Assembly: GCF_964340395.1 (NCBI RefSeq)
Contig: NC_135552.1
Span: forward strand, 16,528,194 to 16,592,193
Direction: 5' to 3'
Source of the DNA: Glandiceps talaboti
Lineage: Eukaryota > Hemichordata > Enteropneusta > Spengelidae
Length of the DNA: 64,000 nt
The position numbers and the translations under genes are program-made. A model generated the notes under the pieces. That model searched no databases. It saw only the letters and a program-made list of their open reading frames with translations, and was not told where the DNA came from. Positions 28,587-31,500 of this stretch are shown piece by piece. Numbering within the stretch: position 1 is the first letter of the stretch; every line of letters starts with the position of its first letter.

Positions 28587-31500
28587 ATGAACAACGTCGA
28601 CTGGAGAGTGTATTCAAAGAATAGAGAAGGGCAGCAAATGTTTGGCCAGCAACTGTTGTCGTTTTGGGACAATGACTGGAAAGACGGTGACATTATTTTA
28701 GATGTCGGGTGTGGTACTGGAGAACTGACAAATCAGATAGCAGCACGAAAGAATGTTTCAACCGTTGTCGGTAAAACAGTGTGAAGTTGTTGTTGTTGTT
28801 GTTGTTGTTGTTGTTGTTGTTGTTGTTGTTGTTGTTTCTAATGATTGCTCCAAGTATCTATAGCTATATAGCGTTTTTGGGCCACGGCAGGCTCAGTCGT
28901 GCACCAGAATAGTTATTCCATGGCCATGTCCCATCACTGGGCCATTTTTTTTTACAAGTCTGGACTGTCAACCAACTACAGTTCATTCGGTTAAAATGTA
29001 GACTTTTGACCCCCGAAATCTGCAGACTTCATCCCATAACGTTTGTGCATTTTCTAGGTGTTGACGTTGCCCCAAATGCCATCAAGTTTGCGATGGAGAA
29101 CAACTTCATTACAAACAAAACTCGATATCTACTGACTGATGTTAATGATATTCAAAACAAGTATCCAGAGTTTGAAAACTTCTTCACTAAAGTTATGTCA
29201 GCTAGTGTACTTCACTGGATTGAAGACAAAGAGAAAGCATTTCGGAACTTATATTGGAGTTTGAAACCTGGTGGTGTATTTGCATGTTTATTTACCTTTG
29301 CTGACAAACGAAATCTATATAAACCAATCTCTGATCATATAAAAGAACACCCTAAGTGGAAAAAATACCTTCAGGTAAGATTATGACGAATCCTTTCATT
29401 TTAATTCCAGTTTAAGACTCTATCATCTTGACATTTCCCATTTCACATTCCAACTTGGCGAATAATTGATAAGCTTGGGTAAATATCCGGGGCCGTACAG
29501 TAACTAACGTAGATGACGTCAGTGTTATTTTTAGTAATCCGGGTTTTTAAGTACAGTAGGTCACATTTACTTCATGAATTGCCAGCTGTATAAAAATAGT
29601 ATAGGAACGAATATATAAAAAGACTAATCACAACATTAGTTCAGTCATCAGCCTGACTACGAAGCCCAGCTCAAAGTACCAAACAAAATTTCACGAATCG
29701 ATTTGATAAGAAGAAACAATATATCGACAATGCCTGAAGAAACAGCTATTTTGAAATTGAAACAGACTTCTGCTGAAATAATCATGGAGAAGAACAAAGG
29801 CAACTTAAATTTATATGGAAAACTGTTTACAGGTGCTAAGAAATTCCTCAGACAGATTTCCCAGCCTAACAGTTACATCGAGCCTACAGCTTCTGAAGAA
29901 GTGGTGCCACTCTACCTGTCGACTCTTCCAGTAATGGAATTCGGTGCGATCATCACTGATACCAGAAACACAGTATACGACATTGTGCCTCATAGCTACG
30001 CATACGAACTCGGACTTTGCAAAGGAGATGAACTGATTACATTGAACGGAGTAGATTTAACTCGCTTATCAGCTGCCGAGATTAAACACCAGTTTAGAAT
30101 GATAGACGATGAAACAGAACTGATTATAAGGAGATCAAATGCTGACACAACAAGTCATCACGATGGGTCCGGAGATGTTCATATTAGCATATCAAGACCT
30201 ATTTTCCAAGAGCATGTGAAATCGTGCACCATAGACTCCGTAGGAGCTCAACAAGTTATGCTGAAACATAAAAAGATGTACACTGCTTTTATCAAAAGTG
30301 TTTCATGTTCGAATTCCATGGCAACAGACTGTTGTCTAAAACAGGTCGGTGATAACGTCACAGGAACTCCGATACGAAATGGGGAAGAACGATTTCACGA
30401 GGTTAAAGTTCACATGTATAAAAGCATTGGGGCAACAGACGGACTTCCTTGTATCATGGACATTGGTCCCAGTAAAGGTTTTCTTGTTGTAAATCAAGGG
30501 TTGGCGGTCAATACGTTCGTGTTACAAGTGAAGGCGTTAAACCAAAAGATGTCCGTCGGATTGACGACCGGGTGTTCTACAAAATGTCACCTCCAGGAAC
30601 TGACAGAACAGTTTTCAAGTCAGCGACAATGCCTAATGTCTACCTATGTATGCAGGGAAAGAATCTTACTGTAAAACGTGTAGAGAACATTGATGATTTA
30701 TCGAACGAGGCAATGTTTGAAGTTCACACCATCAAACCAAAGAAACAAACAAAAAGGTTTTCATTCTTGTAGAAAGACTAACTCTCACTAGACCGGGCAT
30801 AGTATGTGCCTTAATTTCTTAGTTCCAGACAAAGTATGTCCTCTGTGAGGATAGGATTTAAAATATTTTGTCTGCTAGCAGTTGATGCTATGCATCGATA
30901 GAACAACTTTATCAAACGGTTCGTATGTGTAGTCTAACCATTTTAATTTAAGACACTGTTTTGATAAAAGTTGTTCTAAGTTGCCCAAATTGGGTTTATA
31001 ATTTATTCTAGAGTACTCAGTACTCATGTAGAGTTTAATATGTTTGTATTTTTAAATATTATAATTTAAAAAAATAGTTTTATATATTAATTTGTATTTA
31101 GTCATATTTATATTTACCTTAAGTTTACAGAGAAAAGTTCCTTTGATATCTAAAAAGAGTGGAAATCATGAGATCTAGAATTCAGTACTCGATCACTGAG
31201 GGAGATTTCAGTTACAAGGGGGAGATGGGCGAAATCAAACCCGGTGCGTTGCCTTTAGTAAAATGTGAGCCTCCTTCAATTGCCTTTCTCTAAATAAACT
31301 ATAACCCTCCATCTGAGTTCAAATGTTTCAAAAAAACATTAGATCGAAGTACTATCAGGCGTGAAAAGGGATACAAGTCTCAGAATCAATGGCAAGGACT
31401 CGACCCCACCGCTGCCACCACATCGATCAGTTTAAAGGCGCATTGGCTGATTCCCAATACTACAACCACTGTGAATTTATGTGAAAACACTGCATTAATC

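Follow-up and report, generated by a model that had tools for sequence, protein, structure and literature searches.

The window analysed here, a 64,000-nucleotide stretch of the Glandiceps talaboti genome, holds a PDZ-like open frame that is followed, in another reading frame, by a motif of the interleukin-1 (IL-1) family. Does this non-vertebrate genome encode a protein that joins a PDZ domain to an IL-1-type domain, and can the copy in the window make it? A preliminary description had proposed a leaderless IL-1-like PDZ protein in an invertebrate. As a statement about a family this stands, since the genome very probably carries a leaderless PDZ-IL-1-type family, but the window holds a broken copy of it that cannot make the full domain.

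The window segment and its frameshift

The features of the segment are listed in Table 1. By blastn it is 98.5% identical over 1748 columns to c22_4 (L010 6740-4993), one of four intact copies on contig C22, and the flanks of the two duplicated segments are unlike on both sides. The open frame comprises 250 residues in the original frame and then 64 that are out of frame, and it ends at the stop at 30672-30674. When the window is aligned at the DNA level with the four intact C22 copies, the window copy alone shows a 4-bp gap after about position 30480; the IL-1 motif lies in a different frame from the start codon because these four bases are missing. The stretch 29730-30772, which had been taken as one shifted product, is thus two frames split by a 4-bp deletion, and we reject it as a single product, the intact frame being different. 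Two of the blocks that had been assigned to the domain, FLVV and FVLQVK, are missing from all four intact copies, where this region is G[YS]I[TA]CC[KT]SRV[NG]GQY[VA]RVTSEGVKPKDVRRIDDRVFYK. The intact frame at the break reads SKG[YS]I[TA]CC...GVKPKDVRRIDDRVFYK, and FLVV and FVLQVK are therefore out-of-frame residues, the frame having been switched too late in the earlier reading.

Other elements of the preliminary description were borne out. The N-terminal PDZ domain is matched by the Pfam models PDZ_6 (5.4e-5) and PDZ (3.6e-4), both below their cut-offs; the start has, by eye, no hydrophobic leader; and the IL-1 signature with Met in place of Thr was located (Table 1). The stretch 30572-30769 alone matches Pfam IL1 with an E value of 0.0035, which is under the cut-off. 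The window copy is most likely a pseudogene, a frameshifted and recently duplicated family member that could at most yield a PDZ domain and part of a trefoil.

Table 1. Features of the PDZ-IL-1-type segment in the window
Feature	Position	Strand	Basis or remark
Duplicated segment (upstream region, single coding exon, 3' part)	29424..31166	+	Copied from c22_4 on contig C22, or from a common source
TATA-box-like TATAAAA, also in c22_4	29589..29595	+	Consensus match only
Open frame, 314 aa: N-terminus, PDZ, linker, first part of IL-1-type domain	29730..30674	+	Frame reading
PDZ domain, about residues 58-140	29901..30149	+	Pfam matches at residues 81-133
Linker motif SHHDGSGD; candidate caspase site	30153..30176	+	HDG[ST]G also kept in C12a
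IL-1-type domain, first part, in frame	30222..30479	+	Alignment with intact copies; Pfam IL1 at c22_3 residues 231-320
4-bp deletion site (frameshift) relative to four intact paralogues	30480..30481	+	DNA alignment A1
Rest of domain in original frame, out of frame with start; ends TKRFSFL and stop	30482..30772	+	96% identity to c22_3 query residues 257-354
IL-1 family signature F-x-S-A-x2-P-x2-Y-L-C, Met for Thr	30614..30676	+	Carries FKSATMPNVYLCMQGKNLTVK

Intact tandem copies on contig C22

We searched all six frames of the assembly that contains the window (590 Mb, 47 contigs) with protein queries and found conserved relatives on contigs C22, C12 and C10. Four intact copies stand in tandem on the minus strand of C22 (3052277-3062930). 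Read from MPEET, they encode 357, 355, 355 and 348 aa, all four free of internal stops, and the N-terminus (MPEET...KLK) has no hydrophobic stretch by eye. PDZ and Pfam IL1 matches occur together in all four proteins, mostly under the curated cut-offs; for Pfam PDZ, c22_4 (6.9e-5, 23.6 bits) lies above the cut-off of 23.2 bits and the remaining copies (19.3-19.8 bits) below it.

In the six pairs of intact C22 copies, dN/dS is 0.18-0.36 in the IL-1-type half, and it is 0.29-0.70 in the N-terminal half, with few changes behind either range. The two halves also diverge to unlike extents, which suggests gene conversion among the copies. The lack of introns in the C22 genes suggests an old retrocopy with later amplification.

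We also note two features at the ends of these genes. The κB-like palindrome GGGAGTCCC lies at -193 and TATAAAA at -112 upstream of c22_1, c22_2 and c22_3 (L009/L010); the palindrome is thus present in three of the five copies, and the window copy and c22_4 have a different upstream region without it. The C22 C-termini (KPKKQTKRFSFL) carry a basic stretch and end in S-F-L, which could serve as a class-I PDZ ligand, and head-to-tail binding of this terminus to the protein's own PDZ domain is conceivable.

Intron-bearing relatives on contigs C12 and C10

The locus C12a, as a model spliced from the genomic sequence, has five exons that encode 402 aa, with intron phases 0, 2, 1 and 1. Its exons 2 to 5 are 40, 33, 64 and 41% identical to C22, the last two values being those of the IL-1 exons, and its linker retains HDG[ST]G. 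C12a matches Pfam PDZ below the cut-off (0.002, 18.9 bits), and the full protein has no match to Pfam IL1. A further locus, C12b, has the second half of a PDZ domain (E 0.0016 among 1513 ORFs by hmmsearch) and an IL-1 exon (3.2e-12), which lies about 11 kb from that of C12a. An IL-1 exon was also found on C10 (2.7e-7), and no PDZ exon was found in the DNA examined at that locus. Exon 3 of C12a and the PDZ half of C12b, which MAFFT misplaced, were left out of alignment A5.

The IL-1 exon of C12a, C12b and C10 starts at the same place after a phase-1 junction, seen from the acceptor side only in C12b and C10. C12a has two phase-1 introns and then no further intron. Two repeats accompany these loci: a minisatellite in the intron that follows exon 3 of C12a (L011 3900-7870; unit about 85-86 bp), and a long tandem repeat with LNSIYGK-type frames upstream of the IL-1-type exon on C10 (L028 1870-3460).

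Identity of the second domain

Pfam IL1, with a curated cut-off of 25 bits, fits the second domain better than any other model in both C22 and C10, in agreement with the relationship originally proposed. The C10 exon lies just above the cut-off (1.4e-5, 25.2 bits). The domain of c22_3 taken alone reaches 23.7 bits (3.9e-5; 2.6e-4 for the whole protein), the whole C22 proteins reach 18.4, 21.1, 19.9 and 14.0 bits, all under the cut-off, and C12b 13.6 bits (0.056), so that one lineage of the four, C10, passes it.

A six-row family profile (A2) was run against 177,635 PDB sequences with E up to 10. Its 37 matches include 30 from the IL-1 family (best E 0.0015), as variants of a few proteins: 15 of IL-18, 8 of IL-1β, 4 of IL-33, 2 of IL-1Ra and 1 IL-1 chimera. 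IL-1, IL-18 and IL-33 are thus its main named matches, which supports the proposed relationship; the other seven are RsgI5, two arabinofuranosidases, a papain-like proteinase and three designed trefoils. With a longer profile (A6), 40 PDB matches are obtained, with a bacterial collagen adhesin first (1.4e-4), IL-18 next (0.0049) and then IL-33.

The IL-1 signature, which we take to be PROSITE PS00253, F-x-S-[ASLV]-x2-P-x2-[FYLIV]-[LI]-[SCA]-T, is present in full in none of the four lineages. C22 and C12a fit all of it except the final T, where they have M, and C12b and C10 depart from it at additional sites. When any residue is allowed in place of Thr, the signature turns up once in a six-frame reading of the window and a single time over all 30 mononucleotide shuffles, so it is rare by chance. 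The beginning of the signature is printed in PMC7144542. Judged from these sequence comparisons, the second domain probably belongs to the IL-1 superfamily, and a beta-trefoil fold is expected for it.

Beyond these loci, a whole-genome search with Pfam IL1 gave two weak matches, the C10 paralogue (24.2 bits) and C5:15388659 (23.1 bits, with two stops). Weak protein-search matches on C6, C4, C10:13695282 and C14 have E values of 0.3 to 3.9, and no relative was found in the viral contigs searched with the intact protein.

Comparison with known proteins

The preliminary description had stated that no PDZ fusion was known. One is, since nIL-1F (also nIL-1Fm), a novel IL-1 family member in fish, has been described with both domains: the lumpfish protein has 352 aa, an IL-1 and a PDZ domain and a predicted caspase-1 site (PMC7144542). 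The fusion is thus not new, and what is unexpected is its presence outside the vertebrates. The nIL-1F clade includes cartilaginous and lobe-finned fish, and its authors place its origin before the jawed vertebrates diverged; binding to IL-1 receptor type 1 is reported for the grass carp protein (PMC7144542). Fish nIL-1F is further reported to antagonise IL-1β (PMC7144542; PMC4929537); it has no signal peptide, and in trout cells the 169 aa at its C-terminus inhibit IL-1β-induced gene expression (PMC4929537).

We judge kinship with nIL-1F by architecture, size and literature. Both are leaderless PDZ and IL-1 proteins of similar length (352 aa, compared with 348-357 aa in C22 and 402 aa in C12a), the IL-1-type domain lies within about the last 170-190 residues, and the predicted caspase-1 site of the fish protein has a candidate counterpart here. 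They differ in that nIL-1F is, in the sources cited, a protein of cartilaginous, lobe-finned and ray-finned fish whereas the present family is non-vertebrate, that the C22 copies are intronless and tandem, and that there is no known IL-1β here to be antagonised.

Other members of the superfamily are less similar in architecture. IL-18 and IL-33 give the family profile its best PDB matches, which cover the later part of the profile; to our knowledge, neither has a PDZ domain, and the literature cited here, so far as it goes, restricts them to vertebrates. IL-1β and IL-1Ra resemble the family in the signature, which is near-complete in C22 and C12a, in the F-F and FES-type motifs (named in PMC12108812) and apparently in phase-1 introns (PMC4880838), but have no PDZ part. 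The last three introns of vertebrate IL-1β have phases 1, 1 and 0 (PMC4880838), and the final phase-0 intron is missing in C12a.

Receptor candidates

A bona fide IL-1 receptor was not found in the genome, the best Ig_6 match (24.4 bits, cut-off 25.5) being a locus with Ig-like and EGF-like frames. TIR matches number at least 141 (150 of 158 candidates scored), and many of them lie in open frames of about 900-1000 aa and in clusters, which looks like a large TLR-type expansion. Four TIR exons were read; the three compared with the PDB have TLR1, TLR1 and TLR2 as best matches, and one joined TIR matches TLR1 (4.9e-22) ahead of SIGIRR (5.4e-14) and IL1RAP (1.4e-13). Because the Ig_6 match is below the cut-off and the TIRs are closest to TLR1 and TLR2, we claim no true IL-1 receptor.

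Two loci, on C17 and C8 (L057, L058), have Ig-like, EGF-like, HYR, hydrophobic and TIR frames, with Pfam matches to HYR (2.5e-15 and 1.8e-15), EGF (0.0047 and 3.9e-5), the first TIR halves (0.016 and 0.022) and, in one of the two only, Ig (0.007 and 0.0085). The joined TIR mentioned above belongs to one of them, and their TIR mixes TLR-type and apparent IL-1R-type features (GFKL, FWKRL..AMP). These loci are receptor candidates only. In the parts of the literature drawn on, IL-1R-type TIRs are said to be confined to jawed vertebrates (PMC7075850), and invertebrate IL-1R-like genes are mentioned elsewhere (PMC9020223; PMC12108812).

Proposed mode of action and alternatives

The explanation that we consider likely as a whole is a pre-vertebrate, nIL-1F-type family of leaderless PDZ-linker-IL-1 proteins with a frameshifted duplicate in the window, together with a putative mechanism. 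In that mechanism the intact proteins would be made in the cytosol as leaderless precursors and tethered by the PDZ part to a scaffold or a membrane. Injury, or caspase cleavage within the HDG[ST]G linker (candidate sites SHHD/G in C22 and DSHD/G in C12a), would free the IL-1-type domain, which by analogy with the blocking of IL-1β by fish nIL-1F may act as a ligand or as a receptor blocker on an Ig-type TIR receptor. This released-ligand mechanism is tentative and could well be wrong.

We regard it as unlikely, though well worth weighing, that the proteins are of IL-1 type by descent but serve purely as intracellular PDZ adaptors or scaffolds, the trefoil binding a cytosolic or nuclear protein and never being released. 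PDZ domains are typical of scaffolds, the S-F-L end of the basic C22 C-terminus could be a PDZ ligand, and the genome search returned no IL-1 receptor. The S-F-L end is missing from C12a, however, and for nIL-1F, whose architecture is the same, receptor binding and antagonism of IL-1β are reported (see above). The absence of a leader by eye would also suit an adaptor, but it says little because most members of the IL-1 family have no signal peptide (PMC4929537).

Could the window copy nevertheless be alive, its 314-aa product being retained to occupy the PDZ partner as a decoy? The upstream region and 3' part were duplicated as well, and before the deletion only seven coding differences separate it from c22_4 (three silent and four not). 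The youth of the copy accounts equally well for its intact PDZ domain, and the out-of-frame residues after the break also speak against a decoy, which we consider improbable.

That the second domain is another beta-trefoil (FGF, fascin or R-type lectin) fused to PDZ, its likeness to IL-1 being convergent, is highly improbable. FGFs belong to the fold class expected here; a single-sequence phmmer search, with 39 PDB matches, places designed trefoils on top (2.7e-5), which we take to be derived from FGF1, with IL-1β at 0.11; the profile search includes the RsgI5 and arabinofuranosidase trefoils; and C10, as the sole lineage with an FGF match, has one under the Pfam cut-off (0.067). The IL1 match of C10 is better than this by more than three orders of magnitude, C22 has no match to Pfam FGF at E up to 1, and natural FGF chains are absent from all three PDB match lists (39, 37 and 40 matches). 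The near-complete IL-1 signature and the intron phases likewise argue for an IL-1-type domain, and we know of no FGF protein with an N-terminal PDZ domain.

Fish contamination, suggested by the fact that known PDZ-IL-1 proteins come from fish, or an assembly error mimicking the frameshift, is extremely improbable, since the family lies on 21-29 Mb contigs of the assembly in intronless and intron-bearing forms and the mitochondrial code reads as non-vertebrate. A 4-base sequence error may still underlie the gap, but it would only make the window copy intact.

Neighbouring genes and mitochondrial DNA

Methyltransferase exon frames lie at 28590-28783, 29054-29383, 38072-38404 and 45448-45813 on the plus strand of the window, in what looks like a tandem gene array. 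Three of the four match Methyltransf_11 (up to 5.4e-11), and the first matches other methyltransferase models. The PDZ-IL-1 segment starts 41 bases behind the frame at 29054-29383, in the same orientation. Two C2H2 zinc-finger ORFs occupy the minus strand, at 22259-24358 (700 aa) and 50318-51946 (543 aa).

On contig C40 (L033, L034), mitochondrial DNA (53% GC) is repeated head to tail every 15,435 bases. The gene order, with genes named from their translations, is deuterostome-like, but cytochrome b lies between ATP6 and COX3. The frames of ten protein genes contain three AAA and six AGA/AGG codons, all outside the likely gene bodies, and COX1 has four ATA codons at sites where I or M is expected. 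Echinoderms share ATA as an Ile codon with hemichordates, and Balanoglossus lacks AAA (PMC2697986). Read together, these features fit a hemichordate, most likely an enteropneust.

Origin of the IL-1 ligands

According to a review, invertebrates have yielded no IL-1-like sequence and IL-1 receptors are older than their ligands (PMC9020223); a research article states that invertebrates and jawless vertebrates lack the IL1 gene (PMC9382457). Among the matches listed in the open-access literature we found no report of an invertebrate IL-1 sequence, and such an absence is not proof. We lean, by a little, towards the view that IL-1 ligands predate the vertebrates and that the PDZ-IL-1 protein is their founding form, kept and amplified in hemichordates and kept once in fish as nIL-1F, with IL-1, IL-18 and IL-33 as descendants without the PDZ domain.

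If this is true, the gap expressed by 'receptors older than ligands' would be a gap in detection, the origin of the ligands would move back and fish nIL-1F would gain an ancestor. Invertebrate IL-1-like activities have, according to the review, long been described without a molecule (PMC9020223), and the present family is a candidate for that molecule. The original function of IL-1 would then be testable in an animal without adaptive immunity.
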